This document shows, in pieces, positions 139-60,405 of a stretch of DNA of 64,000 nt (within the stretch, counting starts at the first letter, position 1; each line of letters begins with the position of its first letter). Both the position numbers and the translations under genes were made by a program. Source of the DNA: Tetradesmus obliquus (lineage: Eukaryota; Chlorophyta; Chlorophyceae; Sphaeropleales; Scenedesmaceae). Under the pieces are notes generated by a model, which was given only the letters and a program-made list of their open reading frames with translations, was not told the DNA's origin and made no database searches. The DNA is taken from the NCBI GenBank assembly GCA_030272155.1, contig CP126202.1, positions 2,852,001 through 2,916,000 on the forward strand. Reading direction: 5' to 3'.

Positions 139-3100
139 GTTATTGGGGGGCTGACGCGCCGTCTGCCACCGTCCCTGTGGCCACCAGCAACGCCTTTGCA
201 GCACTGGGTGACATGGCTGCAGCTGCCGGCAGCGAGCAGCTGTTAGCGCTATCAGGGCAGCCATTGATGCAGCCAATGCCTGGTGCATTCGGCTACGACT
301 GGCAGCAGCAGCAGCAGCTGGTGCCTCCATTCATGTGGCATCCACCACCACCTCCACCACCACCAGCCGCAGCAGCAGCGGCTGAAGAAGAGGCTGCGGT
401 GCCTGCTGCTGTGGCAGCTGCCTGCCAGCGCCGGCGTCCGCTGGAGGAACTTTTGTTTGAGGAGACTGATGCAGCGATGATGAGCAGGTGCGTGCGTATT
501 ACATAGTGTAACTTGGGCGAAACGTGTGCTGCTACATGTGCATCTCTCTTTGGCGGCCCAAGCCTGGTTCTCTTGCACTGTCATCTGGTGAGGCGCGGTG
601 TATGCACCAGCTTGTTTGGTTCACAGGCTCCCCGGCTCAGAAAACTCCAACTTGCCTCAGCAGGTGTGCAATTGCATATGCTGCCTGGTGCTGCTGTAAG
701 CTAGATGCACATGCAGCACTGCAGGATGGGCTGCAGTGTGATGTGCATTGGCAGCCCCACTAGCACTGCTATGTCTGCTGCTGCTGCCGGCGCTTGCTGC
801 TGCTGCTGCCACCAATGCAGGGCTGAGCGACAGACGCTGCTGCAGCACCTGAAGGAGCAGCTGGTGGGAGGCTTTGCTGATGCTCTGCAAGGAGACATCG
901 CTGCACTGGACAGTCTGAACACACAGCTGCGGCAGCTGTATGACGCCAACAGCCTGCAGGTGCGCTGCAAACTGGCAGGACAAACAGAGCAAAGTGTATG
1001 CCGACCTCAACTATCAACACAACATAATGCGGCACAGCCTGCTACTTCAGTGAAAGCTGTTGTGGGCTGCACTTCTGCGTGCAGCACGGATGGGCTGCTG
1101 GCTGGCTGCTGCAGGCACAGCAGGCTGCAAGATGTCAGTCAGCGCATGTACTTGTGTACCCACGTGTTAGCTGACGTCTGTGCATCTGTGTCGCCGCAGA
1201 CGCTGCGGTGTGCGCGTGTGGTGGGTATGACCACGAGCGGAGTGGCTCGCATGCAGAACCTTGTGGAGGCACTGCAGCCCAAGGTGGGACACTGCAGAAT
1301 TGTTTGACAATGAAGCTTGATTCACAAGAGCATGCAAAGACAGCTATGGGTGCAGCTTGGGTGAGCTGTGCATCAATGCCTGGTGAAGCCTCGTGGAGGC
1401 GCTGCATCCCAAGGTGAAACGCTTGTTAATATGGCTGGATCATGGAGAAGGCTATAAAGGCCATGTTATTCTAGCTGCAGCTGCATCTTGTGCCGGTTGT
1501 GCAGCAGGGCCTGGTGCAGCCTTGCAGCCTGCTGTGGCTCAATTTCATGCTGCTGCATGTACAGAAGAATTGTGTGTAGGTGCTGAGATGCTGCGCCCTG
1601 CTGCTGCTGCTGCTGCCAGGTGCTGCTGATCGAGGAAGCTGGGGAGCTGCTGGAGGCACACACACTGGCCTCACTCAGCACTGCAACAGAGCACGTCATC
1701 CTGATTGGTGAGGGCTGCAGCTGCAGCAGTGTGACACAGACAGCTGTACACTCTGTTGCGCCGCCTTCATTTTATAACAAACATATGACTCAACACCCTG
1801 CCAACATGCACATGCAAATCCTCCAATGCTCCAATCCTACACCTGCTCCCCATTACTTCGGCCAGCCGGCTGAGCGTGACTCGTCTGCCAAACTTGTGCT
1901 TGACAGCTCAGCTGTGCGCGTGGCTGCTGCAGGCGACCATGAGCAGCTGCGCCCCAAGCCGCAGTACTACCCCCTGGAAGCAGCCTCAGGGCGTGGGTAC
2001 AACCTGGATGTGAGCGCCTTTGAGCGGCTGGCGAGCAGCGGCAGCATCCCTGTTGTCACGCTGCAGGAGCAGCGACGCATGCGGCCCGACATCTCCAGGT
2101 GGGCTTGCCGACTGCCACCTTGTTGCTGGTTGACTGCTGCTGCGTGGCTTGTCATGCGTTCAAGATGATGAAACGTGTCAGCAGCAGGTTTATGCTGTGC
2201 ACTTGCTGCTGCTGCATGTGCAATTGTGTGCGATATACACCTTGCATGGACGGCATCAGACTCCTGCTGTTTCTATCCTCATCCTGCTACTCCTGTTACG
2301 CATGTGTGCTTACATATCTGTGTGTATGGCTGCACTGTTGATTCTGCCCAGGCTCATCCGTGCACCCATCTACCCCAGCCTGCGTGACCATCCCAGTGTG
2401 GCAGCTTACCCGGCAGTGCGGGGCATGGCGCAGCCGCTGTTCATGCTGGCTCACAGTGTGCCTGAGGGCGGCCAAGGCGCGGATGACAGCCGGTCAAAGT
2501 TCAACTGCCACGAGGTTGACCTGGCTGTTGGGCTGGCCAGGTAAGTTCTTTAAACGCAACGTATGCAGATTCAACCTTTGTGAAGCAATAGTGTATTGTT
2601 TTGGCGTTGCCAATTCCAGCGAAACATGGGTGTGTAGGGTGCAGCAGGCGGAAGGACTTACCAGCGGCTGCAAACACCTGAAATCTGGGTACATGACTAT
2701 GCCCATTGCGGTGCTGCCAAGTTCACTTGCTCTCATGACATCGCTGGAGATTGCATGCACACTATCTCTCCTGCTTGCTTGCCCTTGCTGCAGCTACCTC
2801 ATCAAGCAAGGCTACACCAAAGAAGGTGATTTAGTCATCCTCACGCCATATGTGGGCCAGCTGCGGAGGCTGACCAAGGCAGTGGCAGCCAGCAACATGC
2901 GGGTTCTGCTGAGTGACAGGGACACAGAGGAGCTGGCTAAGCTGGTGGATGAAGCAACAGCAGCAGCAGTTGCAGCTGTAGAAGCCGGCGATGCTGCTGC
3001 TGCTGCTGCTGCTGCTAGTGGTGGTGGTGATGTTGCTGCTGCTGCTGCTGGCAGCACTGGCGACACCGGCAGTGGTGGTGCTGCAGGTGGCGGTGCTGCT

Positions 3101-6100
3101 GCTGGTGGCACTACGGTCACTGACATGCAGAGCTGCCTGCGGCTGGCTACGATTGACAACTTCCAGGTAGGGTTTGTTGCAGCAAACCTGTCCTCTAGAG
3201 ATGCAGATCTGCTGTCTATCATGAGACAAAAGGCACAACAACCTGTTCTTGGCATTGTCAAGGTGGCCGGAAAACGTTGGTGGGGATATGCTCATGCGGC
3301 ATACATCATGCGATGTGCTGCCAGAAGAACTGACCTGTGCTACTGCAAGCTTGCACCACATCAGAGGCTGCATTTGGTTAGGCAGCTGTCATGCAGCCAC
3401 CAGGCACCAGCCAGCTGAGCTTGCAGGAACCCACCAAGCAGACACAACCTGTCAGCAGCTGCGCATGATGCTGCGTCAGCAGCTGTCCAGCCCTCCAGGG
3501 GCTGACAATCCTAGCCCGGCACAACACTGTGCTCAGCATAAGATTGTTGTTTCCTGCTTACCTGTAGCCCCATCAGCCTTGTTTGGCTCCTTTTTGGGTG
3601 GGCCTGCAGCCTACTATAATTCTGATTACCCGGTAATTGGGTGATATGTTGCCCCTGCAGGGTGAGGAGGCCACCCTGTTCATCCTGAGCCTGGTTCATC
3701 AACAGCTGCCCAGCCTTCTCGAGGTTTTGGATGCCAAAGCCAGCACGCTAATGTGGCTGAGCATAAGCCTGCTGTTTCTTTCTTTCGTGCCTCATTCCCC
3801 TGCAGGGTGAGGAGGCGACTGTGGTCATCCTGAGCCTGGTGCGCAGCCGGCCAGACGGCAACATCGGCTTCCTGCGGCTGCGCAACCGCATCAACGTGCT
3901 GTTGTCGCAGGGCCAAGCACGGCATGTACCTGCTGGGCAATGCAGGTGCGCTGCTGCTGCTGTCGGCCGCTGTACACTGGGCAAATCTGCGGGTGCATCA
4001 GGGTGGGGGGTTGCATGGTGTAGAATATCAACTGCATGTTTTTGAGTGGAGCATGTAATGTAATGTAATGTAATGTGTGTTTTTGATGCGCTGTTGTCGC
4101 GGTCACTGCCGCAGGGAAAGGTTTTGGGTATGTGTCACCATGCAATCACAATAACCCCCAAATGGGCATGGCGTGTTGCCCTGCTGCCGCTGTTTGTGTA
4201 GACACGCTACGTGCTGCGGCTGCGCCGCCGCCGGAGGGCAGCAGGCGTCCTGCTGCCCCCATGTGGGGGCAGGTGCTGGACATGCTGCAGGAGAGGGACT
4301 GCGTGGGCAGGGAGCTGGAGGTGGGTTGCGTGGTTCATCATGCCATTTTGTAGAGACATGTGGCTTACACACACGTGTGCATCAATGTCACTGCTGCTGG
4401 GACATAATTGAGGAGTCGGGCTGCGTGGGCACGAAGCTGGAGGCAGGTTTTCACTCTGGTATGAATAGTGAGCAGCTGATGCGGTTTGAGTCGCACGCCC
4501 ACCCAGATGCACTCCCTTCTCATCTTGCAGGTTAGAACCTGAGCGAGGTGTTGAGAGCTGTTGGGATTTGAGCTGTGGAGAACTTTGCGGCTGGCATGGC
4601 AGCAGCATGGCACCATCACCGTATGTGCCTTCTCATCACTTGCAAGCCGGTTGCAGGAAGCATCGGCACTGTGTTCTGTAACCCGTGCCGTAGTGTTCAT
4701 CTGTCATCACAACTCCTCTGCTGCTGCTTGCCACTGCTGTGACCCGCCCAACTGCCACCGCTGCCTTCCTGCAGCTGGTCTGCCAGAAGCACGGCAACAG
4801 CACCCGCGTCTGCCAGCCGGATGACTTCGAACTTCTTGCAGGAGACGGCGGCTGCCAGCTACCCTGTGATGAGCGCCTGCCCTGCGGCCACGCCTGCCGC
4901 AGGCGCTGCCATGCAGACGACCCCGGGCACCTCACATCTCGCTGCTTGCAGCCGTGTGCCAGGCTGTGTGCTGCGGGGCTGCATGCCTGCAGCAAGCTGT
5001 GCTTTGAGGCGTGTGGGCGCTGCCTGGAGCAAGTTGATGGGGTGGTGCTGCCTTGCGGGCACACTGCTGATGGCGTGGCCTGCTACCAGTGAGTAACTCA
5101 GTGTCGAGTTACGCCATGGCATAATACAGACTAAGTTGTTGCTGCAACATACATATGCAAGCTAAGCTGCCCTGTGGACACACAGCTGATGGCGTGGACT
5201 GTCACAAGTGAGTGCTGGTCCCAAACAGTGGCATGCGTGTGCTTCCAGCAAACGTGTGCCAGCAGACAGCAAACATGTGCTTGACTCTAGGTATCCAGCA
5301 GAGGGTGCAAAGGTGCTGCAGGGGTGATGCAGAGGTAGTTTGAGGCGTACTTTGGGCTGCCGACAGCTTTGCTTTGAGCAGGAGTAAGCAGTTCAATACA
5401 ACACAACTCAGGACTGGGGGGCCGTTCAGCACAGCAGTTGTTGCTGCACTCTGGCGGCAAAGTCGTTCAGTGCAGCGGCCCGTAAACACAGCCGAATGTT
5501 ACTTCTTGCTGTGTCTCTTGCACTTGTTTTTTGTTATGCAGGGCCCTGCAGCCCAGCACCATTGCCTGCAACACACAAGTCACGGTGCACCTGCCCTGCG
5601 GCCACAGCCACACCACCAGCTGCACAGCAGCTGCAGCCCTAGCAGCCAACCCTCACACCTGCCCTGCAGCAGTACAGCTCAAATTGCCAGCCTGTGGCCA
5701 CCTCCTGAGCTGTGCATGCAGTGAGGTGGCAGCCAAGCGGTTAGACCCCAGCACTTGCAAGGAGCTGTGCGGGGCGCTACTGCCAGGCTGCTTGCATGCA
5801 TGCACCAGCAGCTTTGGCAGCTGCATGGGACTAAACCTGGAGCGGCTCATGCAGCTCTGGGTGCAGGCAGTTGAAGCGGAGCAGGGTACAGAGTGGCAGG
5901 GTTTGGGAGCTGTGTGCAGGCGGCAGATGGCAGGTGCTGGTGGAGCGAGGCAGCTGCTGAAGTTCCTGCAAGGTGCAGGCACAGCAACAGCAGATGCTGC
6001 AGGTGGTAGGGTTTCATCAGGCAGGAGCTCTGGGAGCATCAGCATCAGCAGGGGTGATACAAATGAGGCGGCAGGCGATGCTGAGCAGCACAGAAAGCTA

Positions 6101-9100
6101 GCAAACAGCTGGCTAGCATGGCTGCAGCAGCTGCAGCAGCGCAGCACGGCTGCTGCGCTGGACGCCAACAGCAGCAGCAGCAGCTCCGCCAAGCAGCAGC
6201 TGCACCTGCCTGCAGACTTCACCCTGATCCACCCTTCCTGCAAGCTCAAGTGCAGTAAGCCGCTGTCCTGCGGCCATCCATGCAGCAGCAGCTGCCACAG
6301 CGGCAGGCCCTGTCCTCCCTGCGGCGCCAAGTGCCCGGTGTCCTGCGAGCACACACGCTGCGGCAAGGGCTGCAGCTTGCCTTGCGCCCCATGTGCAGAG
6401 CCCTGCGGGTGGTCCTGCAGCCACCAGGGGGCGTGCAGCTTGCCCTGTGGGGCGCCCTGTGACAGGCTGCCTTGCAACATGCGGTGTGAGAAGACGCTGA
6501 AGTGTGGGCACCGCTGCCCTGGACTGTGTGGCGAGGTGTGCCTGCAGGGCGGCTGCGTGCACCCCAGCTGCAGGGACAAAGTGCAGAAGGCCAAGCCACA
6601 CCTGATGGATCAGGTGCGGCGTTTGTATTGCCAGTATGTGTTTGACGGTCTGATGGTCGTGCCTTGTGAAGCTGCGTGCGTGTTGGGCAAGGTCCTTGCA
6701 CCTCCCTGTGCCCATGATGCTGCTGGTGTGAAGACTGCAGCTGCAGCTTGTTGACCAGGTGCTACTGGTATTCGTGTCAACAATAGCCCTGCGCTTTGCA
6801 ATGAATTGAACATCGGCGACTGTTCCTGCTTCCTGTGCTGCATGCGCTGCTGCTGTGCTAACTGCTGCAGGTGGTTGACCTCGTGATGCTGAGCACCTTT
6901 GCTGACCTGGACGACTCAGCAGTGGACGCAGACCCGCTGCTGCTGCTGCCCTGCGGCCACGTGTTCAACACCAGCACCCTCGACGGCTGGATGGACATGA
7001 CAGCCGCATACGAGGGCATCGCAGCAGGTTTGTTGCGCCCGCTGCTGCTGATCTTTCATGCCCCGCTGGCTGTGCGTGTGCTGGTCAGCAACAAAGATAG
7101 CTTAGCTGTTGCACTGCGGCGCTGACACTATATTTTGCTGCTCTCAGACCCCAAAGATCTCCTGGGCTCCGTGTCTGCTGGCCATTCTGCTTGCATGCAG
7201 GCAAGGACAGCCCGGCCACCTGGACAGCCCCCAAGGCGCTACCAGATGTACACACATCACAAACCTGTTGTTGATATGTCCAAGATACACAACAGCTCCG
7301 CACACATGTCCTGTGCTGCATGCCTGCTACCTCTCTGCCCATGTCCCTCCACAAACAGGCGAGGACAGCTCAACCAGCTGGGCAGCCCCCAAGGCGCTGC
7401 CGCCGGATGTGTGGTCACCCAAGGCCTGCCCTGCTGGAGGCTGCGGGGCGCTGGTGGTGGGGCTACGCCGCTATGGCAGGCCAGCCAACAAGGCGCTGCT
7501 GGACTTGATTCAAAGGAAGCAGCTGGAGTCGGGCAGGTGCGTGGCAGTATGTTATGCATGCAATAAATATACATCACAAATGTGTGCACGCCAATGCATT
7601 TAGTACTGCACGCGGGTTGCCCAAGCAGCAGCTGCAACTGCATAAAAGCTCCTCACCGAGCGCTGCATTGCCAGAGGCTGGCTGACTGTGTCATGCATGA
7701 GCAGAGGCTTGCAGTGCAAGGAAGCCTCCTCTGCATGTACCGACCACTCCAAAACCCAACGTCAATGCCGTGCACATTCTGTCATCGTAAACACCCTCAT
7801 CCCTGTGTTTGCTGTACACGCCGCCGGCACCTGCTGCTCCAGGCTGCGCTGCCAGCAGCTGTCAGGCCAGCTGCAGTCGCTTGCTGCTGAGGTGGACAGC
7901 GCCAGCAAGGCCCCTGGCTTGAAGCAGGGCTTTGCGCTGCTGAAGCGCTGCAGCAAGATGGCAGATGACCTGCAGACAGGGCTGGCACAGGAGCAGAGGT
8001 GAGTCACTGATGGCCATTGCAGCACAACGTGCATTAAGAGACATTTAATGCAAGTTGCAGTGCACAGGGGTAGTTGTGCAGCTGGTAGCTGTGTGGTGGG
8101 ACAGCTGATGCTACAGCACACTATCAGCTGCATAAACCATCTGCGTTGTCAATGAGTCAGCTATTTCAAAGCTAACGCGAGCAACCGTCAATCACTAGCG
8201 TGTACTACTGAGTAGTACTCATCAGGCCGCCTGAGCCATGCTGATGAAGCTGAGCCACCTGCTGCTGTGCTTTGCATCCACTTTTGCATCCCGTCTTTGA
8301 CTGCATCGCTGTGCGTCTGCTGTCCTCGCTTCTTTGACTGCTCCGCTGTGCGTCTGCTGACGCAGCCCTCCCACGGCGCGTGTGCGTGAGGGCTGCATTG
8401 TGGCCCTCAAGAGGCTGCAGCAGGAGCAGCGGCTGACAGCGCAGCAGGTGGAAGCCAGGCAGCAGCTGCTGCTGGTGCCCCAGCCAGACACAAGCCTCTG
8501 CGGCACGTAAGTGCTGTCAGTGCTGTGGCGGCTAGAATCCCTATTTAGGTTTAGTGTGTGAGAAGAGGAGAGCACAGCGCTGTGCTGCTAGCAGCTGTCT
8601 CATGACTTGGCAGCAACACTGTTACATAGCCTGAAAGGTGAAACATATGCTAAGCAGGAAACATAAGTTAAGCAGCAGATACCACACGTGGACCTTGCAG
8701 CAAGATAGCTTTTCAAGCGGCTCTGCTGGTCCATCAACTGAAAACCAGCACAGGAGATGAGTGGACATGACTGCATGATCTGCGCTGTATTTGCACTGTG
8801 CAGGTTTGCACGTGGTGTTGCTCAGGTGACAGAGCAGCACCTGCGCGTGATTCAGCTATTGCTGGCGGCAGCAATGAACAATGCAGACACCAATGCAACA
8901 GCAGGCGGTGCCAGGGGCTTTGGCCGGGCGGCTGGTGGCAGCACTGCTGCTCAGACGGCTAAGAAAGAGCAGCAGGTGAGTTGATGCTTGCATCTGTTTT
9001 TGAGTGCTGGTGCTGCCTGCCTGCCTTGACATTGCCTTGCACAAGCATGATGAATGTTGCTGAGCATGTGCATGAGCATATGTCTGTAGACGAGCTTGAC

Positions 9101-14354: not shown

Positions 14355-16251
14355 TCACTGCCAGGCAGCCCAGCCCACAAACATGCGGCACAGCCTGTCA
14401 GGGTCTTGTGCGCTCTGCAGCCACTTGCCAACCTGCGCAGCAACACTCATCGCCACGCCACCCTCCACATCCTGCCCCTCCAGCTTCTGCTTCACCCTCA
14501 GCACTGCCCTCTCCGCATCCGCATTCCCAATTGCTGCTGCACCGCTTCCTGCAGGACCGCCCGCGCTGCTCGCTGCACCACTCGACGCAGCAGCAGCGCC
14601 AGCTGCTGGTCCTGCAGGCGTCGCAGCAGCAGCGCCGCCGCCGTCTGCTGCTATGGGGTCCTGCTGCCGCCGCTGCGCCTTTACGGGTGTCATCTGCCAC
14701 TTGTACATAGGGTCATGCAGCACCACCTCCACCACTGTCAGCAGAGCCTCTTTGTGGCTGCGCAGTGCCTGCAAGCAGCAGGGAGAGATGCAGCATAGCG
14801 GCAGCAGCGGTTTGTGTGCGCATGAATGTCAAGTGTCTTGTGATTGTGCATCGAAAAACCACTGCACAAGCCTGACCTAGCAACCGCTGAGCATGGTTTT
14901 GTCAGAAAAGCAGCGCATACCGCATCATCCACATCCCAGCCCCACCCACGCAACAATGCCATATGTGATTTCACCAAAGAGCAAGACTCTCTGCTGTCCC
15001 ATGTGCAGAACCAAACCAACCCAGCCCCTAAAGCATGCTACATGATCATCTTGCCGCCGCACCTGCAGCGTTGTCTCGCAGCAGCGCCGGAAGGTTCCCT
15101 CCAGGCCTGCTGCGCCCATGCCGTCAACCACGTTGGCCGTCAGCCGGAACGGCACGCGCTCCGGGGTGGACAGGAACATGCCCTGCTCGAAGGCAATGCC
15201 CAGGTCGATGTGCAGCACCTGCACAGCGTATAAAACGATTGAAACACGCATTATACCTGCTTTCCGCCAAAGCGTCGCACCTCTGCAGTGGTTCAATCAA
15301 CCAGCACTGCCAGCAAGCAACGCCTCACTTGCAGCTGCGCAACAGCAGCCCTAACCAGCAGCACAAAGCACAGCCCCACCTCTGCAGTGGCCAGATCTAC
15401 CAGCACGTTGTTCAGGTGCCTATCACCAAGTCCGATCACTGCCCCAGCCATGCTGTTGACGGCGGTGCTGCGCGTGTAGGCGGTGCGCGCGGTGAACCAG
15501 GCCGACGGCTGCGGGAAGAGCTCCAGGAAGAAGTTGTGGAACACGGGCGGGAAGTGCGCCATGCACTGCGAACAAGGGTGTGAAACTGAGTTGGAACATG
15601 GGTGTGAAGTTGAGTCCAACAATCAACATCAGTAAACACTCCAGTCCCAACATCCATTGATATGTACAAGCTGTGCATGCGTGGTTGTGCGTGAGCAAGC
15701 CACACAAAACCAGCAAGCAGCGCCAAACAAACATACCAGGTGTTTCTGCCCGGCCCGAATTGCAACAACATTAACACTAATCTACACAGCCGCATCCCAC
15801 TCACGTAGAGCAGGTTGTCCTTCAGCTGCTCAGGCTTGGAGCTGTGCATGCGCTGGTGACACTCGAACCACGTCATGTTGCCGGGCTTGCGGTACCTGCA
15901 CGCAGCAACAGCACCAGCCACTGGTCCATTTAGCAATACCATTGCACAGCAAATTCTTGGAGTCTTTGATAATCAAACAGACATTGGCAGACACTGGCTG
16001 TGATGATCGGCACAATCATGCAGCTAACAGCAGCTGCAGCAGTTGACGCTAGAGTACTATTGCAACACAGCGCTAAGCGCCGTTCTAATAATTTTGACTT
16101 GCAAGGTCATTTCTGCTCATGCATTTGCTAATCCGTACCGTGCGCATGCGCCGCCCTCCTTCATGGCTCCCTCTGAGAGGTAGTCGCCCACTGGCTGCGT
16201 GCCGTCCACCCACTGCACCACGCCCACCTTGGGGCTGCACGGCACCACCCT

Positions 16252-16309
<58 letters not shown>

Positions 16310-16599
16310 TGTAAGCAGTAGTCAACAGGTGGTGTCTGCAGGAATGCCGTCCACCCACTGCACAACGCCCACCTTGGGGCGGCATGGCACCACCCTGCAG
16401 CAGCAGCAGCAGCACCAGCAGCAGCAGCGAGCACGCGTTTCAGCACAAGAAGCCAACTCCGCTGCACCATGCCCACCTTGGGGCTGCACGGCACCACCCT
16501 GGCAGCAGCAGTCGCAGCAGCAGCAGCGAGCAGGCGTTTCAGCACAAGCAGCCAACCTCACTGCACCACGCCCACCTTGGGGCTGCACGGCACCACCCT

Positions 16600-16634
<35 letters not shown>

Positions 16635-16923
16635 GCAGCAGCAGCAGCAGCGAGCAGGCGATTCAGCACAAGAAGCCAACCCCACTGAAACACGCAACTT
16701 TGGGGCTGCACGGCACCACCCTGGAGCAGCAGCAGCAGCAGCAGCAGCAGTAGTGAGCAGGCAGTGTCTGCACAAGAAGCCAACCCCACTGCACCACGCC
16801 AACTTTGGGGCTGCACGGCACCACCCTGGCAGCAGCAGCAGCAGCAGCAGCAGTGAGCAGACGTTGCAGCACAAGAAGCCAACCCCACTGCACCACGCCC
16901 ACCTTGGGGCTGCACGGCACAAC

Positions 16924-16962
<39 letters not shown>

Positions 16963-18406
16963 GAGCAGACGTTGCAGCACAAGAAGCCAACCCCACTGCA
17001 CCACGCCCACCTTGGGGCTGCACGGCACCACCCTGGCAGCAGCAGTAGCAGCAGCAGCAGACAGTAAGTATACGTGCCAAGCTGGCGCTGTCCGCCAACA
17101 CTGTCTCCTCTGGCTGCAGCCGGCTGCTGATGCTGGCGGCTCTGGCATTGATATACGCGTTGCAACATATTGAAATGGTGATGTAGCACTGACGTGTTGG
17201 TAATCACAAATCAAACTAGCAAAGGAAAAAGATGATTGCAGTTCAGTCACCAGTAACATGCCCACCTGTATGTGCGCAGGCTGAGCTGGCGCTGCTGGCT
17301 TGCAGGGCTGCTGCTGAGCAGGTCGTTGATGAGCCCGAAGAACTGCTGCATGACGGCGTCCTGGCGCAGGTCGTCGTTGCCTGACTTGACGAGCTGCTTT
17401 TGCAAGTTTCCGGCCGAGTCGGTGGTTCGAACCACCATCGGCACGTTGATGCCGCCGGGGAGGTCCACGACGCTGTCGACCTCTGTCACGTGCGGTATAT
17501 CCTGTAAACACATTTGTATGGCACAGCAGCAGCAATGTGTGCTCTCCTGTGTCCTCCCAGCATATCCATGGCACAAGATTCAGTCAGCAAGAGGCTGGGG
17601 TTGCTTCAACAGCAGCAGCGTTCACTGCTGCTGTTTGACAGTAGAACAAAGATGCAGCCAGCCAGCCTCACCTCGTAGCGACAGCTAGGGTCCAGTGGCA
17701 GGTTGATGCAGATGGGCGGCGCGTGCTGCACAGCCAGCAGCCGCCGCCGCACACTGCCCGGCAAGGCCACCTGCTTCTGTAGCACGCGTCCCTGCGCGTT
17801 GCGCGGCACCTTCACTGCCTTTTCGAGCTCGATGAACACCTGGACCTGTAATAAAAACAGAGCAAGAAACAGAAAGTGTGCAACTCTGAGCTGTACCTGT
17901 ACTGTTTAGGCATTCATGCAGCTGATCAGCAGCTGAGTGCTCCAGTCCAGGATGCTGCTGCTGTTCGGCTCATCCAAACAGGCAATGCTGCAAGTGCTAC
18001 AGAGCCACTGCCTGCATCATCACCTGTGTGACCATGTCATCAATGGCCTGCGTGAAGCGGAAGGTGGTGTGGCTGGCTGACAGTAATGCCTCATACAACA
18101 CAACAGGCAGTGCTGAAATCACAACAGAGTTACTAACTGCCTGTATCATCACCTGTGTGACCATGTCATCAATGGCCTGTGTGAAGCCGGGGGGCCATCT
18201 ACCCCAAAAACATCATCATCACCATACTTGATCATTCAGTCCCCAGCAACAATGTCCATATCTCGCCCCATGCAAAACATATGTTTTAGCCATCACCTGT
18301 GTGACCATGTCATCAATGGCCTGCATGAAGCCCAGGGGCCCCTTGCCCCGCAGCTCCTCCAGCAGCGACGCAGCAGCAGCAGCCTTGCCCTGGTCGGTCT
18401 GCACCT

Positions 18407-18462
<56 letters not shown>

Positions 18463-21400
18463 GAGACTGGCAGAAGCAACACGTACAAACCAGGTAGCTG
18501 ACGTGCTGGCAGCAGCAGCAGCAGCTGCAGCTGCATCTTTACAGTTGAGCATCTTCACTTTAGGGCTGGTAGCAGCAGCAGCAGGTTGATCCTGGGAGCA
18601 GTTTAGTACACAATCACCAGGTGATCAACCCTACCTGAGCGCCTCCATCCACGTCTCCGTTCCTCAGCGCAATGAGCGAGTACAGGGTGTGGTAGGGGTG
18701 CTCGCGCATCAGCCTGCTCAGCGCTGTCTTCAGCACAGCCTGCAGCAGCAGCAGCAGCAGGAGCAGCAACAGCAGCACAGCGGTGAGAAAGGGTCTCAGG
18801 CAGTGCTGTGTTCTTCACAAGGATATAACATCCATCTCTGTACAATCTTTGATTATGGCAACCACCCAGGAATGCAGCAACAAGGACATAAAATGTAGGC
18901 TCAAAACTAGCAACAAGCACATGTGCTGTTGCTGCTGTCCAGCCATCACACCATCTGTTCCACCAGCCGCACAAACTTTGCCCTGAGCATCTAGCGAACA
19001 CCTAGCAACAATGTCATGTAACAACAAGTAACAACGTCATATGACATGTCACGTGTCACTTGCCTGAAAATAGCCCTCGCTGCTGTCCAGGCGCGAGGCC
19101 ATTTGGTACACCAGCGGCGCAAATCTGGCGCTGGGCACGCTGCTGAACAAACAGCAGCATTGTCATGCGACTACAAATAACACTGTCATGTAGCATGTAA
19201 CGGTGCCAAGTAACACACCACAGTGTCACTCACCTGAAAGGAGCCCTCGCTGCTGTCCAGGCGTGAGGCCTTTTGGTACACCAGCGGCGCAAATCTGGCT
19301 GCGCTGGGCACGCTGCTGAACAAACAGCAGCATTGTCATGCGACTACAAATAACACATGGTAGGAGGTGTGAAGGCGCATGGGGTATCCTCATCGTCACA
19401 CACACCCCCTCCCTTAACTTACGCGGGTGGCGAGTTTTAACACACCACGCGTAGCTCATTCATTCATTCATTCACAAATAACACTGTCATGTAACATGTA
19501 ACAGTGCCGAATAACACATCACATTGTAACTCACCTGAAAGGAGCCCTCACTGCTGTCCAGGCGTGAGGCCATTTGGTACACTAGCGGCACAAACTTGGC
19601 GCTGGGTACGCTGCTGAACACGTCACCCAGGGCGCCGTTCACGCTGGCGTCACTGCTCAGCTTGAACCACAGCCCACACAGCCGGTACACCACCTGGCGA
19701 ACAGATTTGAAGGATAGCAGTAGGGACAGGGCAGCAAATGGAAACATGCACTGGTTAGGAGCGGGGCGCCAGAGCGGCTTCAACAAATATTGAACGCAAA
19801 TGTGTTCTTGCAAAGCCAAAGCAAGTATGCAGGTGGCACCGGTGCTCGTATCCTGCACATGCAAGCAAACCCGCGGCAAGCTCACAGACCAGAGTAACAG
19901 CCAGCACCCTAAGGGTCCCAACCCCTCCGGCTCCCAGTCATACCTGCAGGTCGTGTGTGTTGCCAGTCGCAATGCACAGCCGGTAGCTGCTCAGCGCAGT
20001 GCGCAAGCACGCCGCGCGATTCGCCTCCACCTGCTGCACGATCTCCTTGTCAGCAATGACCTGGCGCTGCATGCCTGCATTGCGGTTTAGCTGCTTGATC
20101 TCAGCCTGAACCGCCTGCGAGCCCTGCTTGGCTGGAGGCAGCCGCCTGAGCTCCTGAGCACGCTGCAAAATGGCCCTCCAGACGCCTTCTTTGTATTCCA
20201 GCACCTGCTTCTGCTTCTGCCATTCAGGGGATGCCATCTGCGCTTCAATCTCTTTGAAGCGCTGGTCTGCGTACGAGGCGAGCTGGAAGTACACTCCGCA
20301 GTGCAGGCGAGAGAGCTCGGAGTGAGCATGCGAGTCTGCTACGTCAGCCGCGGCACCCTGCTGCTGCTGCTGAGCGATCGCTGCCGCTGCTTTGAAAGCA
20401 CTCAATGCGCTGTCGCCGCTGCTGCTGAACTGCCCTGCTGCCATCCACTGCCCAGCAAGGGCCTGTGCACGCATCAGCGCTATTGGCAGCCGCTCGCTGC
20501 TGCTGCTGACTTGCTGTCCTTGCTGCTGCTGCTGCTGGCTTTGCAGGGCAGCCACGAGTGCCTGCAGCTCCCTGAAAGCTGGCAGCTGCTGCCCCTGCTG
20601 CCACTTCAGCTGCACATTCTCCAGCAGCCAAGGAGCTTCAGGTGCCACTAGCTTCTGTAGCCAACCCCTCAATCGCTGCTGCTGCTGCTGCACTCTGCCA
20701 GTATCTCCACTCAGCAGTTGCATCTGCCAACCAGCAGTCGCACTGCTGCCGCCAGCAGCCGCACATGCCTGCTGCAGCAACTGCTGCAGCTGGTTCAAAG
20801 CAGCCAGCGCAAAGTTGGCTTGCCCTGCCTTGCGTGCTGTGCGTGCATGTGCCTGCAATGTGAGAGCTAGAGCATCAGGCCTGCCTAATACTTTGGTCAA
20901 AGCACCTTGCAGTGACAGCAGCTGGTCAGCAAGCTGAAACCTTGAGACTCTCAGCAGCTCTGCTGTTGCTGAGCCACCACCAGGTATCCAATCAGCACCA
21001 AGCAGGTGCTGCAGCAACTGCTCGGCATCTCCTGCTGCTGCTGCACTCGGCTCTACACTGCCGCCTCTGCTGCCAGCCCTTGCTGCTGCTGCTGCTATGC
21101 TGCGCTGGCTCGCTGCAACAGCAGCCTGCTTCCTAGCCCAGCCTAGCCCCTGCTGCAGCATATGCAGCATCCGCAGCTGCACCAGCAGCGGATTCACTGC
21201 TGCCGCGCTCTGGGTACTGCTCCTGGACAGCTGCAGCACACACTCATGCCTCGCATTCGGCACACTCGCTGTAAACCCCTCTAAATCCTTACTCTGCAGG
21301 GCCTGTAGTGCCGCCAGCACTGCTGCATTGAAGCTTGACTGCGCTGATGAGTCAGCAGACTTGACTGCTGCAGCTGCTGCTGCTGCGAGGCCACCCGTGC

Positions 21401-26766: not shown

Positions 26767-26804
<38 letters not shown>

Positions 26805-34761: not shown

Positions 34762-36669
34762 GGTAATCGCAGAAATGAAGGTTATGAAGGTTACTTCAAA
34801 GAGGATATGCTAAACACATATGCAGCTGTTAGAGCTGCACCAAGTTACATACCCACACAAACAAAACACAAGCACACCACTCCTTCATGGGTCCCGACCC
34901 TGGTGGCCAGGCACATCACATGCCGCAACAGCAAACCGAGACAGCTTCAAGTTGAAACAACAAACGCACCTTGAAGCGGACGTTGCGCTCGCCCCATGCC
35001 TGCTTGACATACTGCTGCAGCGGCCGGTGCAGTGTGGCAATTGTAGGCCGCAGCTCCTCGCCATATGACAGCAGCAGCCCATTCAAACTGGCTAACAGCT
35101 GCACATCGATGCGCCCGTAGCGCCTGCAGGACAGGACGAGCATGGGTGAGTTGAGCCAAGCTGAGGCAGCAGCATGGTCAAGGTATATGCAGGTGGGTTT
35201 GGTGCGGATGGCATGCACTGCACACTGTGCAGTTCTGGCATGACCTGCTACCTGCAGATTATGCTGCCGCTGTTGCTGGAATGTGCTGCAATGCATGCTG
35301 CATTTGAGAGGAAACTGCGAGACCAGATGTACCTACTAGCACAAAAAGGCAGCAGCGCCAGCATCCCGTGCTTCTCTCGCTGTTTGCTGCAGCCCAGCTG
35401 CACCCATTTGTGCAGCTGATTTCGATTTGCCATGTTCAGAAAGTAACAACAATTGTAACAACCCCGCTCACCGCTGCTGCCCCAGCCACTTCAGCTGCTC
35501 CACCAGGAAGCAAGCAGTGTCAGCGACAAATTGAGGCACCAACTGCCCTGGCACCCCACCCAGCAGTCCTGCAAGCAGCCCTGCCATGCTGTGCATCTCT
35601 GCTTCACCCACTCACGCATGCAGGAGGGCACCTGACAGCTGGTTCAAATTTGTTATTTTAAAAGTGACGCATTTTGTAACAACCCCGCTCACCGCTGCTG
35701 CCCCAGCCACTTGAGCTGCTCCACCAGGAAGCAAGCAGTGTCAGCCGCAAACTGAGGTACCAGCTGCCCTGGCACGCCCCCCAGCAGTCCAGCAAGCAGC
35801 CCTGCCATGCTGTGCATCTCTGCTTCTGCTGCTAGCGCCTCCTTGCCCCGCCCAAAGGCCCCTGCTGCTGCGCCCTGTCCTGCAAGCCGGCCTGCTGCTG
35901 TGGCTGCTGCAGAGCGGCGAGCTGCCTCTTCGTCTGCTGCTGTTATGCGCTGCTGCAGGGATTCGAAGCGGCACATGACCTCCTCAATGAGCCCTGCAGC
36001 AGTGCAAGCAGGGCAACCAGTTTAAAACAGTGTGTTGGGATCGGCCATAACGCTGTTCTGCTGCTGTTATGCGCTGCTGCAGCGATTCAATGCGGCACAT
36101 GACTTCCTCAATCAGCCCTGCAGCAGTGCACGCAGGGCAAACACATGACCGTGGTTTAGTGGCAGGCTGCGTTTACACGCTGCTGACGGGACGCAAAGCA
36201 GCACATGACCTCCTCGACGAGGCCTGCAGCAGTGCAAGCAGCACAGTTGAGGGTTTTTGAAATAGCCAACACGATCCTTGCACATTCACCAAAGTGCGCG
36301 CACCAGGCACAAGGCAATGCGTACAGACGTGCAGCTGTGATGCGCTGGCCCTGTTGTCACAGAAGCAGTGCCTCATTGGCCGTCCATACACAAGTCAACA
36401 GTGCCGCAAACAACACACATAGGGCACACAAACACCATACAAAGGACCATTCACCCCTCACCCTGGAAGGTCGCCACTGTGCTGCGCTGGCAGTACTGCG
36501 GGTTAGGCAGCAGCACCTTTTGCAGGATGCCTACAAACTCACGCCCTGCCGGCGTGCCAAATCCCTCCCCTGGGGGGTCACATGCCTCCAGCACTTTGTG
36601 CAGCTTGTCAAAAGCCACGCCAGCACGGCGCAGAAGGTTGCAGCTGCCGGGACCTGCAGCAACAGCATG

Positions 36670-36730
<61 letters not shown>

Positions 36731-38236
36731 ATGATATTATATCATTTCACAAAATGCAGCTGCTTTCTGGTTAGTGCTACTGGCACTTTGGGCAGCTTGT
36801 CATGCCAGCACGGCGCAGCAGGTTGCAGCTGCCACGGCCTGCAGCAACAGCAGCAGCAGCAGGAGCAACAACAGTTGATAGTCTGCAGCAGTTGTTCTCT
36901 CACACTGCTGCTGGCACTTTCTGCATCTTGTCAAAGGACACGCCAGCACGGCGCAGCAGATTGCAACTGCCGGAACCTGCAGCAGCATGCAGCATCCACA
37001 ACAGATGCAATTGATGCGTACGTGTTTAACGCAGCACATACACTGCCACTGGCGGTGGTGATTGCTCAAGCCAGTGCTACTTGCTGTGATGCATATGCCA
37101 ATCAAGCAAGCGGGGCACTCTGCTGACTGCTACTGCCACCAGCTGAGCTGACTTGTGACCTTGCTCGCTGTCCAGCCAGCTGCTACTCCTGCCGCTGCTG
37201 CTACTCCTGCTGCTGCTGGCTGCGCCTCACCGCATCTGTCTGGGTTGTCTGCCTCACTGAAGATGCGCCGCAGCACTTTGTTTCGTGTTGCGTCCACCTG
37301 CCGGCCTGCCTCAAGCTGCTGCTGCTAGCTGAGCTATGTTTACAACCTCGGCTGCCGCCGCTGCTGCTACTCCTGCTGCTGCTGGCTGCATCTCACCGCA
37401 TCTGTCTGGGTTGTCTGCTTCGCTGAAGATGCGCCGCAGCACTTTGTTGCCTGTGACGTCCAGCTGCCTGCCTGCCTCCAGCACCTCACGCTGCAGGAAG
37501 CCCAGAAACATGTCCACCAGCCCAGGCCAGGTGCCAACTGCAGCAGCAGCAGCAGCAGCAGCAGCACAGCAGCAGCACAGCAGCAGCAGCAACCTCAACA
37601 ATTTCAATGTGATTTAAAGCAGCAAGTGTTGGCGGACCATCAAACATTTTTGCAGCAGCTGTTGCAGCGGAAAGGATCAGGCAAAACAGCAAGGAAAGCA
37701 GGGCACAACGCAGCTGCAGGAGGTACCATAAAACATGCTGGAAAAAGAGGTGACAGCACTCATATAGTTCTACACCTGGGATCTTCTGCATCAAATGTGG
37801 AGCTAAGGATTTGCACGACCTGCACTGCACTGCACTGTACTGCACTGCTGCTGCTGCTGCTGCTGCTGCACAAGACTTGCAGAAAATCTCAGCATGCTCT
37901 TTGTGCTCTAGCGTGCTGCTAGTCCTGCATGCCACTGCTATTCTTATATCCACATCAGAAGTACGGCCCACGCACATGTGAGCCTGTCCTGCGGCCATAG
38001 CTTTGCTGTGTTGGCGTCCAGCTGGTGCAGGAACTGCGGACTGTCCAGCTGCACATCAAGCTGCTTCAAGCCCTCCTGCAGGCGCAATTACAACATGTGT
38101 TTCGTGTTAGCTATCACTAAATTATGGTCACAACGGAAAGGGATCCTGTGCATTTTGCACACCCTCAGAGCAGCACCTTTCTGTCTTTCACTTTGCTGGA
38201 GTTCAGCTGCCTCTTGATGCTGTCCACCACCTCCAT
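14355..38236 (-). CDS. ATM: ATM/Tel1 serine/threonine protein kinase (PIKK)
   Basis: ATM is the apical nuclear kinase of the double-strand-break response. The start at 38236 follows an in-frame TGA and encodes [20 protein letters not shown], which joins in phase to [20 protein letters not shown]: the Tel1/ATM N-terminal (TAN) motif. A second TAN-like element, [16 protein letters not shown], lies near 36500. A long helical solenoid follows, swollen by Ala/Ser/Gln runs. FAT landmarks are [19 protein letters not shown] near 22290, [10 protein letters not shown] near 22045, a segment ending [13 protein letters not shown] near 19990, and [13 protein letters not shown] near 19665. Kinase landmarks are [20 protein letters not shown] (17400-17340), [13 protein letters not shown] (16249-16210), the catalytic loop [11 protein letters not shown] (15440-15400) with Asp and Asn present, and the activation-loop start [11 protein letters not shown] (15215-15180). 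The FATC domain ends [16 protein letters not shown] at 14358. The kinase therefore looks catalytically intact. At least eleven exon edges are duplicated into adjacent introns, so exon calls are uncertain in places. Confidence 0.93.
16227..17048 (-). repeat. 8-copy array of an ATM kinase exon start plus its acceptor
   Basis: The true exon start ([13 protein letters not shown], copy 1 at 16227-16256) is followed upstream on the minus strand by seven partial copies beginning at about 16372, 16476, 16575, 16699, 16803, 16902 and 17010. Spacings are 145, 104, 99, 124, 104, 99 and 108 bases. Each unit has a (CTG)n tract, a CAG acceptor, about 40 exon bases and a shared spacer reading GGTTGGCTTCTTGTGC in most copies. 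All copies lie between the exon for VVPCSPK and the upstream exon for LRTYR, so they are intronic or alternative acceptors. Confidence 0.9.
16251..16308. repeat. (CAG)n microsatellite at an ATM acceptor
   Basis: About 19 CAG units on the + strand form the CTG-rich pyrimidine-like tract directly upstream of the VVPCSPK exon on the coding strand. Confidence 0.95.
18017..18335 (-). repeat. Three copies of an ATM exon end ([10 protein letters not shown]) and donor
   Basis: The exon end and GTGATG donor at about 18291-18335 recur in the downstream intron at 18146-18186 and 18017-18057. Both intron copies keep the CACAG|GTGATG junction and the DDMVTQ coding potential. Confidence 0.9.
18408..18462. 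repeat. (CAG)n microsatellite in an ATM intron
   Basis: An uninterrupted run of about 18 CAG units, adjacent to the exon encoding [15 protein letters not shown] and acting as the acceptor-side tract on the coding strand. Confidence 0.95.
19062..19695 (-). repeat. Three copies of an ATM FAT exon end, one carrying an insertion
   Basis: The exon edge encoding [24 protein letters not shown] and its donor is seen at about 19533-19640 (continuous with the longer upstream exon), 19231-19340 and 19062-19150. The intronic tract ACAAATAACACTGTCATGT follows in each unit. The middle unit is interrupted by a 117-bp insertion. Confidence 0.9.
19357..19473. mobile_element. 117-bp putative retroposon with ATTC-repeat tail
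   Basis: The insertion lies between two copies of ACAAATAACAC (19346-19356 and 19474-19484). The paralogous tandem unit at about 19170-19190 has a single ACAAATAACAC and no insertion, so it acts as an empty site. The insert ends in GCGTAGCTC followed by an (ATTC)n tail. Flanking 11-bp duplication and a short-repeat tail fit target-primed reverse transcription of a SINE or a truncated LINE. No ORF and no clear pol III B box were seen. Confidence 0.7.
27130..27510 (-). repeat. Duplicated ATM exon segment (MFAEMMEV / MLAEMMEV)
   Basis: About 120 bases at 27165-27290, encoding [19 protein letters not shown] and the donor side, are repeated at about 27390-27515 with few differences. Both copies keep the ATMDEGG-like acidic/Gly stretch and a CACCTCCAT donor-side context. 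The two are separated by about 100 bases of intron-like sequence. Confidence 0.8.
27891..28790 (-). repeat. 7-copy array of an ATM exon end and donor
   Basis: Copies begin at about 27891, 28021, 28156, 28288, 28424, 28560 and 28690, with spacings of 130-136 bases. Each holds the exon segment [19 protein letters not shown]-like, a CTCAG|GTGAGC donor and about 35 bases of intron. The 28690 copy is continuous with the long upstream exon (28712-29344). Units are partly multiples of three, so long open frames run through the array, but spacings of 130 and 136 break the frame. Confidence 0.9.
29294..29600 (-). repeat. Three copies of an ATM exon start ([14 protein letters not shown])
   Basis: The exon start at about 29294-29345 recurs at 29396-29450 and 29523-29580, each with a CTGCAG-type acceptor context and the coding potential [18 protein letters not shown]. 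The copies lie upstream of the true acceptor on the minus strand. Confidence 0.9.
33195..33605 (-). repeat. Three copies of an ATM exon end ([15 protein letters not shown])
   Basis: The segment GCAGCTGCTCGCCAGGCAGCAG and flanks occur at about 33534-33600 (part of the long exon to 34030), 33311-33375 and 33201-33255. Each ends in a CACCT donor context on the + strand. Confidence 0.85.
34251..34700 (-). repeat. Four copies of an ATM exon end ([13 protein letters not shown])
   Basis: The motif GATGTCTCTGCTGACCAGGGC with flanks occurs at about 34614-34690 (true exon), 34495-34540, 34366-34420 and 34251-34310. The copies decay progressively away from the exon. Confidence 0.85.
35460..35830 (-). 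repeat. Duplicated ATM exon end (about 140 bases)
   Basis: Positions 35687-35826 (true exon end, [13 protein letters not shown] and donor) are repeated at 35465-35612 with over 90 percent apparent identity by eye, including the AACAACCCCGCTCACC donor-side sequence. Confidence 0.9.
35939..36245 (-). repeat. Three copies of an ATM exon start ([18 protein letters not shown])
   Basis: The acceptor GCTGCAGGGCT and exon start at about 35939-36005 recur at 36060-36130 and, more diverged, at 36178-36240. Confidence 0.85.
36565..36990 (-). repeat. Three copies of an ATM exon start near [15 protein letters not shown], plus CAG tract
   Basis: The segment CAGCACGGCGCAGnAGnTTGCA occurs at about 36622-36660 (true exon), 36800-36845 and 36945-36985, each with a CTGCAG acceptor. 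A (CAG)n tract of about 18 units at 36675-36728 lies between the first two. Confidence 0.85.
37190..37460 (-). repeat. Duplicated ATM exon end ([15 protein letters not shown])
   Basis: The exon end at about 37375-37460 is repeated at 37208-37292 with the same CTCACCGCATCTGTCTGGGT donor-side sequence. Confidence 0.9.
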
Positions 38237-51564: not shown

Positions 51565-51591
51565 TCAGTGCAACCTATGCACGGGAAGTGC

Positions 51592-51596
51592 TGTAA
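51592..51596 (+). terminator. Poly(A) signal for the protease-LRR gene
   Basis: TGTAA lies 28 bases past the stop codon of the protease-LRR gene, the expected place for a chlorophyte polyadenylation signal. Confidence 0.6.
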
Positions 51597-52580: not shown

Positions 52581-52585
52581 TTACA
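52581..52585 (-). terminator. Candidate poly(A) signal for the GH1 gene
   Basis: TGTAA on the minus strand, about 90 bases past the GH1 stop codon. Confidence 0.5.
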
Positions 52586-52673
52586 TACAACCAAATGCAA
52601 TCCCCCCGTCAACATGTTGTTCCATGCGCATGCATGCATGTTCATATGAACCAGCGGACTCTGTCCGGCAACA

Positions 52674-57650
<4,977 letters not shown>

Positions 57651-58115: not shown

Positions 58116-60047
58116 ATGATGCCAGTGGTTCTGATCACCGGCTGCTCTGCGGGGGGCATTGGTCATCATCTGGCCCAAGAATTTGCAGCTAGGGGCTGTA
58201 GCGTGTGGGCCACAGCCAGAAGGGTGGAGAGCATGGCAGACTTGGAGCCTCTGGGCATCAAAACCTTTGCCCTGGATGTGACAGACAAACAGCAGATTGC
58301 CTCTTGCGTGGTGAGCAGTCACATACCAGTGATGGTAGCATCCATCAGGCTGGTGCGTGGGGCACCTGCGGCAGGTTGATCAAATTGCAACTGCTGCCAG
58401 CAATGCAGCACATCATGGCTCATGCAGCATCAAGGCAGTGGCTTCATCTCAGATGATGAGCTGCGGCAGCTCATACTGTGCTGTAATGCTACACATCCAA
58501 TGAGCACACACTCGCGGTATATGCATTCCTGTGCTCCATGCTCAGCACAGCTACCGACTCGCCACTGTCGCTTGCAGGAACACATCATGTCTGTCGAGCA
58601 CCGCATTGACATCCTTGTCAACAACGCTGGCCTGCTGGCCAAGGCTCCAGTGGTTGAGGCAGGCGTGGATCATTTCAGGCAGGTCATGGAGACAAACTTC
58701 TTTGGCTGCCTGGAGCTCATCGCAGCAGTCACCCCGCAAATGATACAGCGGCAAACAGGTGGGCAGCGTTGTAGTAGCAGCCATGGCGTGTTGCAGATGT
58801 GCACAGCTGATGTTCACAGCAATGCGTCTTTGTGGCAGTTCAGTTTCGGCGGTCACAAAGTAGCACTGGGTTGCGTGCAGGCTACAGCGCAGGCAGGCAT
58901 GCAGGCATGTTGATAACTCAGCACGCGGTGAACAGCACATTGCAAACTCAGAAGCCGTACTTGCCCAGCAGTACACTACTCTGTGCTCCTACAGCAGCTG
59001 CCCACCTTGCAGGCACTGTGCAGGCACTGCAGGCTATCTTTTGGTGGGCAGCTTGATGGAGCGCGTGAAAAGCTGTCACTCACTCACATGTGTTGCCGGC
59101 GGCCTTGCTTGCGCCATATGTAGCACCAGCAGCATCGCCATACGACGCTGCAGCTGCCGCTCACTCGCACTTGTTACTCTTTGTCCTGCAGCTGTCGTTC
59201 AAACACATCTGTTCTTCTTTGCCCTTTTGGCCTGCAGGCACCATCGTGAACATTGGCAGCATTGCCAGCTACACCTCTCAGCCCTTCTGGGCCGCCTACA
59301 GCGCCAGCAAGGCCGCGCTGATGAGCGTCACAGACGCCATGCGCACAGAGCTGAAGCCCCTGGGGGTGAAGGTGGTCTACTGCGCGCCAGGTGGGCATCA
59401 TGGTAGTTTGCTGATGACAGGCCAGCTTCTCACTCTGACAGCTTGCTCGTGTGACATCAACGCAGCTTGTCACCCACGCCCATGCCCACGGAGCTATGGC
59501 ACAAGACCCAGTGATGGCAGCTACCATGCAGATGCCATGCAATTCCATGCGTAACCTCTGCTGTGCACATGCCGCTGCGTCCCTCTGCTCCTCCTCATCA
59601 ACATTTGTTGCAGTCTTTCTTGCCACCCATGTCATTCACCCTGCACTGTGTCCAATCATGCTCATGCATTCCACAGCACTGTCTGCTTGTCGCGATTACC
59701 TTGTGTTCCTCATCATGCTTGTGTTTGTTGCAGGCTTCATCGCCACGCAGCTGGACAGTAAGTCGCGCCAGTCCGGCATGAACTACCTGGACCCCAAAGG
59801 ACCCTACGGCAGCAACCAACAGATCAGTGACTGGGTGCACAAAACAGATGGCATCAGCGACGGCACGCCACCCGCAGCATTTGCCAAGGGCTTTGTCGAC
59901 ATGGCGCTGAGCAGGTGCCCGCCGCCGCACTACGTGAATGGCAAGATGTCGTGGGTGGTGTGGTTCCTGGGGAAGCTGATGCCGCTGAGTGTGATGGATG
60001 GACTGTATGCAAAAGCAAGCGGGCTGCAGCAGCTGGCAGCAGCTTGA
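58116..60047 (+). CDS. Short-chain dehydrogenase/reductase (SDR), AYR1-like
   Basis: Four exons join in phase to 280 codons: 58116-58310, 58578-58758, 59238-59390 and 59734-60047. The start is the first ATG in the frame (MMPVVLITG). Seen: the nucleotide-binding motif [14 protein letters not shown] (an Arg-containing segment typical of NADP(H) users), the structural DILVNNAG, the catalytic Ser in [12 protein letters not shown], and the catalytic YSASK. This is a classical-type SDR core. The TGCSxGGIGxxLA form and overall layout resemble 1-acyl-dihydroxyacetone-phosphate reductases (AYR1) and related retinol-type SDRs, which suggests lipid or ketone reduction. The substrate cannot be fixed from sequence. 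The C-terminus ([20 protein letters not shown]) is hydrophobic and may associate with membrane. The last exon is tandemly copied past the stop codon. Confidence 0.85.
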
Positions 60048-60405
60048 TGCGACTGCATGCTAATGTACGTTGCTTTTTGGCTGAGTCGTGGCGCGTTGCA
60101 CTGCTGCATCAGCATACGAATGAAGAGCACTGCTTTGCCAAGGGCTTTGTCGACATGGCGCTGAGCAGTAGCCCGCCGCCGCACTACGTGAACGGCAAGA
60201 TGTCGTGGGTGGTGTGGTTCCTGGGCAAGCTGATGCCGCTGAGTGTGATGGATGGACTGTATGCCAAGGCAAGCGGGCTGCAGCAGCTGACAGCGGCTTG
60301 ATGCGACTGCATGCTAATGTACGCTGCTGAGTTATGGCGTGTTGCACTGCTGCATCAGCATACAAATGAAGAGCACTGCTTTGCAAAGGGCTTTGTTGAG
60401 TGGCT
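59881..60405 (+). repeat. Tandem copies of the SDR 3' exon and flank
   Basis: The segment beginning [11 protein letters not shown] starts at 59881 (genuine exon), again at 60135 (ending ...GLQQLTAA and stop at 60301), and a third time at about 60381, where homology stops after roughly 25 bases. Periods are 254 and 246 bases. The second copy is near-identical, keeps an open frame to the stop and includes 3' flanking sequence, but has no visible acceptor of its own. Confidence 0.92.

Follow-up and report, generated by a model that had tools for sequence, protein, structure and literature searches.

Local direct repeats at exon edges of Tetradesmus obliquus genes are best explained as short tandem duplications

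Introns of the green alga Tetradesmus obliquus often contain near copies, here called echoes, of the edge of the adjoining exon together with its splice site. We followed these echoes in a 64-kb stretch of nuclear DNA (C12:2852001-2916000, GenBank contig CP126202.1; hereafter the window) and in twenty 10-kb stretches at set positions elsewhere in the 104.66-Mb assembly of 17 contigs. One of the outside stretches was all N, so 19 were used and 254 kb were surveyed in total, from one assembly of one strain. The echoes belong to local direct repeats with a unit of ~85-170 bp (median near 120) that recur across the nuclear genome and are best explained as tandem duplications. The whole explanation that we consider probable is that such duplications span exon edges and leave echoes that lie silent in introns, and that in addition either exon edges are preferred or echoes erode more slowly than expected.

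The window has an average GC content of ~56% (the published value for T. obliquus is 57%; PMC5966456) and CAG/CTG tracts are common, and tracts rich in these triplets were masked by rule before self-BLAST. At E<=1e-3, 67 direct pairs were found within an offset of 1 kb (the limit of what we call local), together with one direct pair farther apart and no inverted pair; a single CAG-cored array at 16200-17060 supplies 24 of the 67. Merging the pairs at 45 bits gives 19 families, in line with the "about twenty" places counted by the first-pass annotation of this DNA, the weakest of which (1259/1389, E=0.023) is not counted here. Three weaker pairs at E=5e-4 (4274/4395, 27621/27731 and 53976/54354) also fall outside the main list. 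The full 254 kb contain 88 families, with 253 direct and no inverted pairs within 1 kb. This corresponds to ~1 family per 2.9 kb, strongly unevenly distributed: five of the 19 outside stretches have no family and two have ten. The nearest copies lie a median of ~123 bp apart, with a spacing of 83-170 bp in 67/76 families that touch an exon and in 8/12 that do not. Among the 43 simple two-copy families the core measures 37-184 bp (<=80 bp in 33) and the offset 58-271 bp (90-170 bp in 36). A duplication in outside stretch L018 (4382-5677) has an offset of 518 bp, far longer than the usual unit, at 96% identity. Masked self-BLAST found no local tandem family at ~37.5-53.9 kb of the window, unlike both flanking regions; these 16 kb (37500-53900) carry a leucine-rich-repeat-like protein gene, recognized by eye from open reading frames (ORFs), and have a lower GC content, mostly of 0.48-0.55.

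Exons were called with our own two-strand ab initio exon-intron model, trained on the same DNA, whose final version with stronger penalties predicts 257 donors and 251 acceptors. The predicted consensus is mostly CAG/GTGAGT for donors and TGCAG/G for acceptors (the slash marks the junction). Pfam matched all five of the first spliced predictions searched (mitochondrial carrier, PLP enzyme, sugar transporter/MFS, KAT11 acetyltransferase and GH1) and both of two further ones (SDR and AAA_12 helicase), while five of ten single ORFs matched, four of them above the curated cut-off, with the RZ-type zinc finger, FAT and GH1 among the matches. Edge counts given below vary by script (68, 74, 79, 81 or 85), each script having its own query width and score limits.

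The repeats are concentrated at predicted splice boundaries. Such a boundary lies within 35 of the 43 simple families, compared with 11.5±2.9 under random placement, and within 64 of all 88 families, compared with 33.5±4.1. Two types can be distinguished: a donor-type echo repeats an exon tail with its GT and is found downstream, in the following intron, and an acceptor-type echo repeats CAG with an exon head and is found upstream of the exon. With 18 donor and 19 acceptor rows lined up by their splice sites, identity stays at ~0.8-0.9 over the nearest 20-40 exon bases and the splice signal, and past the signal it drops to ~0.6 and lower within ten intron bases. The acceptor AG is kept in all 19 acceptor-type echoes, and the two bases of the donor GT have identities of 0.94 and 1.00 across the 18 rows classed as donor-type, one of them in fact a stop-codon end. 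The match includes the splice site in 40/43 donor and 32/36 acceptor edges. The earlier reading that copies sit at exon edges and keep their junctions holds for many of the repeats, in the ZNFX1-like gene, the minus-strand PIKK-like gene, the GH1 gene and, past its stop, the SDR gene (Table 1). In a transporter-gene intron of outside stretch L016 (2259-3068), echoes of both flanking exons are nested inward, as if grown from both edges.

Approximately one in five predicted exon edges (79/391) matches its adjacent intron, whereas other introns reach the same score in 0.4% of comparisons. This null from non-neighbouring introns is close to the refutation test proposed in the first-pass annotation, which asked whether random exon/intron pairs match non-adjacent exons at the same rate, and it favours the genome-wide process proposed there over the history of a single locus. 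The position within the exon matters as well, since stretches of exon lying 70-125 bp in from the edge matched in only 8/146 and 5/148 cases where edges in the same introns matched in 29/146 and 26/148. Intron heads and tails matched the rest of their intron in 13 and 14 of 158 cases. In 46 edges the exon overlap has a median of 49.5 bp (quartiles 37-68) and a maximum of 98 bp with 120 bp offered. Decay of the copies with distance, also claimed earlier, receives modest support: in the 31 arrays that contain two echoes, the closer copy has the higher similarity in 21 and the lower in nine, with one tie.

Flanking sequence bears on the origin of the echoes. After a tandem duplication the intron sides of the two copies once matched, while the exon sides beyond the breakpoint never did. 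Flank tests were run on unmasked DNA, as a masked anchored version is biased by BLAST end trimming and by the masking. Homology is significant on the intron side of 38/68 edges and on the exon-side control of 9/68; for core identities of 0.90-0.95 the counts are 21/29 and 1/29. Intron-side homology rises from 11/29 edges with core identity below 0.9 to 27/39 above it. A stricter, anchored flank test of 36 edges gave mean z values of 1.3 for donors and 1.8 for acceptors on the intron side, compared with 0.08 on the exon side. Complete duplications with little decay are also present, namely the 254-bp unit over the end of the SDR gene and a pair at 4396-4568 of outside stretch L007 that is 100% identical. 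Flank homology and complete tandems together point to tandem duplication as the base process, as had been proposed, although significant intron-side homology is missing from four of the ten cores with identity >=0.95, the youngest.

A unit placed over an exon edge carries the splice site, with ~30-80 bases of exon on one side and some intron on the other. The copy joined to the exon body would stay in use, and the other would be left in the intron as a silent echo whose splice site persists as a decoy; the intron would grow by roughly one unit per event. The intron parts of both copies would then decay fast, and the exon part would remain recognizable through coding selection on one of the copies. 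Exon edges may be favoured sites for the birth of edge-spanning units, or the echoes of such units may erode more slowly than neutral DNA, as the failed neutral simulations described below suggest. As a plausible reason for slower erosion, we propose that a damaged echo would be brought into the coding position when echo and exon recombine, so that degenerate echoes would be costly. A bolder version, which we hold only tentatively, is that edge-positioned duplication, or selection or recombination keeping intronic echoes coding-clean, acts genome-wide, and that introns grow from their ends by ~120-bp steps, burying former edges and splice sites in layers.

The simplest alternative is a plain neutral model in which duplications arise anywhere and decay neutrally, and edge echoes are visible only through their one coding copy. 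This model accounts for the direct orientation and for the intron-side homology, allows the roughly even spread of echo scores, and agrees with the mismatches in long tandem pairs, 281 in 3288 exon columns vs 850 in 6698 others; the L009 1450 row was excluded from this count as a self-alignment of overlapping copies, a fault that other long arrays may share. We simulated evenly placed duplications with neutral echoes, including a heavy-indel version, under assumed rates (exon third positions 0.7 and other exon positions 0.08 of neutral, ages uniform). The simulations missed three features of the data. Edge-spanning outnumber intron-only repeats by 60:9 families, or 62:20 pairs with a core touching an exon, compared with a simulated ratio of 1.5-1.7; the family count uses 69/88 families, after 15 that touch no bounded intron and four in introns >1200 bp were dropped. 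Intron-side homology was simulated in 0.69-1.0 of detected edges, compared with the observed 11/29 below and 27/39 above 0.9 core identity. The simulated median exon overlap was 64-71 bp, longer than that observed (Kolmogorov-Smirnov p 0.0001-0.005), in a comparison of observed exons >=120 bp with simulated exons >=60 bp.

Codon changes between exon and echo also depart from the neutral model. The exon-echo omega is 0.35 (95% 0.27-0.45), where 0.5-0.6 is expected for a neutral echo, with 0.30 (0.21-0.43) for acceptor and 0.40 (0.28-0.56) for donor types, and it is lowest in similar pairs (identity >=0.92), at 0.135 in 18 acceptor and 0.277 in 17 donor edges. The share of synonymous changes is 0.52 in all 81 edges (193/373 codons), the set to trust, and 0.59 (94/159 codons) in a smaller set of 35 clean families, compared with a neutral expectation of 0.37-0.42. 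Polarization with three copies at 31 edges gave 60 synonymous and 58 other echo-specific changes, against 0.263, but is not relied on because changes in the exon may be scored wrongly as belonging to the older echo. The failed simulations and the synonymous excess therefore indicate either placement of duplications at exon edges or echoes that are kept cleaner and longer than neutral DNA, and the plain neutral model is unlikely.

Several observations weigh against our preferred explanation, in addition to the four youngest cores mentioned above. The anchored flank test was singly significant in only 12/36 edges on the intron side, compared with 6/36 on the exon side. The pair 9129/9256 in outside stretch L009 is 98% identical and yet has unrelated sequence directly past the GT, which is unexpected for a simple recent duplication. 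The donor-type omega alone does not exclude neutrality, and across 65 alignments no clustering of mismatches that would indicate partial gene conversion was seen (mean z 0.11±0.13). Furthermore, the exon and intron calls are ab initio predictions from the same DNA, and the gene models are rough, with in-frame echoes sometimes called exonic.

Some of the same features would fit a process aimed at the edge itself, in which positioned breaks or nicks, R-loops at splice sites or RNA-templated repair would copy ~50 exon bases and the splice signal into the intron ~70 bp away. The narrow exon overlap in the 46 edges described above, similarity that breaks off no more than a few bases from the splice site and the unrelated flanks of some near-identical cores all point that way. 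The intron-side homology of the 21/29 edges at 0.90-0.95 identity and the 12 exon-free families with their similar median spacing speak against such copying, which we regard as unlikely. A further possibility is that the echoes are functional, their extra splice sites being used in alternative or regulated splicing or in nonsense-mediated decay and kept by selection. The low acceptor omega, the kept splice sites and the cases where the echo site outscores the real one (8/39 donor, 10/31 acceptor) would fit this, as would a synonymous share that is somewhat higher in open than in closed frames (donor 0.62 vs 0.45, from 4 and 39 edges; acceptor 0.68 vs 0.57, from 11 and 20). However, echo splice sites score lower on average, the offset is a multiple of three in just 18/74 cases, which is no bias, the synonymous share is nearly equal for in-frame and out-of-frame offsets, and reading through to the partner hits a stop in 39/43 donor and 20/31 acceptor cases. 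Frame and stop counts thus lend little support to translation of the echoes, and a functional role for them appears quite doubtful.

The first-pass annotation also suggested that duplication across AG/GT continuously creates introns, as in the Rogers model, which predicts a copy of the upstream exon tail at the 3′ end of the intron, or of the next exon head at its 5′ start. The process is known elsewhere: in potato RdRp the duplicated piece is described as spanning an intron-exon boundary, with a new intron gained (PMC4974935), and novel intron positions in Drosophila are attributed to short tandem duplication within the gene (PMC2891723). The echoes resemble both cases, as described in these sources, in being short intragenic tandem duplications, and the potato piece crosses an intron-exon boundary like acceptor-type echoes do. 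In contrast to those cases, where the intron is new, an existing intron is lengthened here with the copy inside it. The signature of a new intron was found in 2/184 introns, and the internal AG/GT option in 7/39 acceptor-type and 5/46 donor-type edges (12/85 together). This part of the earlier claim is therefore not borne out, and continuous intron creation is very improbable; as far as these data show, tandem duplications lengthen introns and rarely if ever make new ones.

Introners (PMC9860276), transposable introns found chiefly in lineages that evolve fast, green algae among them, likewise change introns across a whole genome. Repeat copies that flank a spacer, often of ~60-80 bp, could be long target-site duplications of Introners or of another dispersed repeat. 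However, the window repeats are local, only 1/68 direct pairs (E<=1e-3) being >1 kb apart, one repeat searched genome-wide returned just its two local copies, and at least some Introner families are reported with target duplications of 3-9 bp (PMC9860276). Window self-BLAST showed no dispersed family, spacers of different loci not being compared, and short target duplications were not noticed, no search aimed at them being made. Judged from the window pairs and the one genome-wide search, a dispersed element appears unlikely, and as a general source of the echoes Introners or their like would be exceedingly improbable. The use of a single assembly leaves room for an assembly artefact, but most copies differ, by up to ~25%, with a synonymous bias, and every local pair is direct; these properties are not expected from duplicated reads or haplotypes, and an artefact is hard to credit.

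Gao and Lynch (2009, cited in PMC4974935) reported that internal duplication of gene segments is frequent in eukaryotes, and the repeats described here are alike in this. What differs from the duplications so summarized is the narrow length of most units (median near 120 bp), their position at exon edges and the longer introns that go with them, at the family density given above. A candidate analogy for the mechanism is fill-in by CST/Pol alpha-primase at staggered breaks, which makes small tandem duplications (PMC8355091): repair produces short tandem duplications there too. In that source it was demonstrated in mammalian cells at induced breaks; it might also run in T. obliquus and set the ~120-bp size. 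We recognized no description of exon-edge echoes in an alga in the literature searched, which was one collection only.

Table 1. Local repeats and exon-edge echoes in the window (positions from its first base; percentages are identities between copies, offsets in bp; "model" is the ab initio gene model)
Feature	Coordinates	Strand	Remarks
Acceptor-type echo (CAG + helicase exon head), ZNFX1-like gene	3652..3695	+	Partner 3797-3840, offset 145; model: 33/44 bases exonic; AAA_12 match
Exon start, source of echo at 3652-3695	3797..3840	+	
Weaker pair 4274-4327 / 4395-4449	4274..4449	+	78%, E=5e-4, offset 121; at predicted donor of exon 4202-4320
Exon tail + donor GTGAGT, ZNFX1-like gene	5047..5094	+	Copy 5166-5213, 83%, offset 119
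Donor-type echo of 5047-5094	5166..5213	+	
Acceptor-type echo 7198-7243 and exon start 7356-7401, ZNFX1-like gene	7198..7401	+	85%, offset 158
Minisatellite-like array around CAG runs	16200..17060	.	Period ~99-108; open in several frames; not clearly an exon-edge echo
Local repeat, three copies	17977..18340	- (strand from gene model)	Offsets 125, 144, 273
Tandem array	18931..19620	- (strand from gene model)	Shortest offset 148
Exon tail + donor 27383-27524 and copy 27161-27299, PIKK-like gene	27161..27524	-	92%, offset 222; model: both partly exonic
Array, ~6.6 copies, inside PIKK-like gene region	27888..28774	-	Period 131-135, ~81% identical; some segments called exonic
Tandem repeat, three copies	29294..29587	-	Offsets 105, 232
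Repeat, three copies	33167..33596	-	Offsets 111, 224, 336
Donor-type array, four copies	34239..34681	-	Exon copy 34605-34681; GTGAGC retained in copy
Donor-type echo of 35674-35826, PIKK-like gene	35453..35605	-	94%, offset 221; 7/8 codon differences synonymous
Exon tail + donor, source of echo 35453-35605	35674..35826	-	
Acceptor-type array, three copies	35933..36241	-	Offsets 106-124
Acceptor-type array, three copies	36591..36977	-	Exon copy 36591-36654
Exon tail + donor 37392-37471 and echo 37226-37305, PIKK-like gene	37226..37471	-	90%, offset 166; intron-side homology continues
GH1: exon start 54012-54051 (inferred) and echo 54181-54221	54012..54221	-	90%, offset 169; model: both exonic
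GH1: exon start 55281-55329 (by eye) and acceptor-type echo 55400-55448	55281..55448	-	84%, offset 119
GH1: exon start 56211-56284 (by eye) and acceptor-type echo 56346-56419	56211..56419	-	91%, offset 135
Complete 254-bp tandem duplication over SDR 3′ end and stop	59880..60399	+	Frame 59439-60047; 92% identical along unit; copies 59880/60134

Some window families are not exon-edge echoes: 16200-17060 is minisatellite-like, and 18931-19620 and 27888-28774 are longer arrays. The GH1 exon starts at 55281 and 56211 were set from a CAG and from what we take to be a GH1 motif; the gene model placed both starts further in. As for the gene names proposed earlier, Pfam supports GH1 and SDR, and the ZNFX1-like gene has an RZ-type zinc finger and an AAA_12 helicase. 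The identity of the gene called ATM (19938-26960) is not established because it has only a Pfam FAT domain and a sub-threshold match to the ATR M-HEAT; a PDB sequence search with one ORF of this gene gave no match.

The earlier suggestion that the duplications lengthen introns is in agreement with the length data. Introns of 150-1500 bp have a median length of 485 bp with a tandem family (n=61) and of 283 bp without one (n=138). The echo rate is 0.02-0.04 at 200-300 bp, 0.15 at 300-400 bp and 0.40-0.42 above 400 bp, where long predicted "introns" may be intergenic; introns of 150-200 bp, with a rate of 0.16 in 32 edges, run against this trend. Families occupy 22% of intron bases. The mean intron of T. 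obliquus is listed as 462 bp, vs 230-302 bp in the other four green algae tabulated (PMC5966456, Table 1), and the echo process could help explain these long introns. The findings touch on how introns lengthen and on how splicing tolerates near-perfect decoys beside real sites. With echoes at about one fifth of its predicted exon edges, T. obliquus offers a natural decoy experiment with graded ages.

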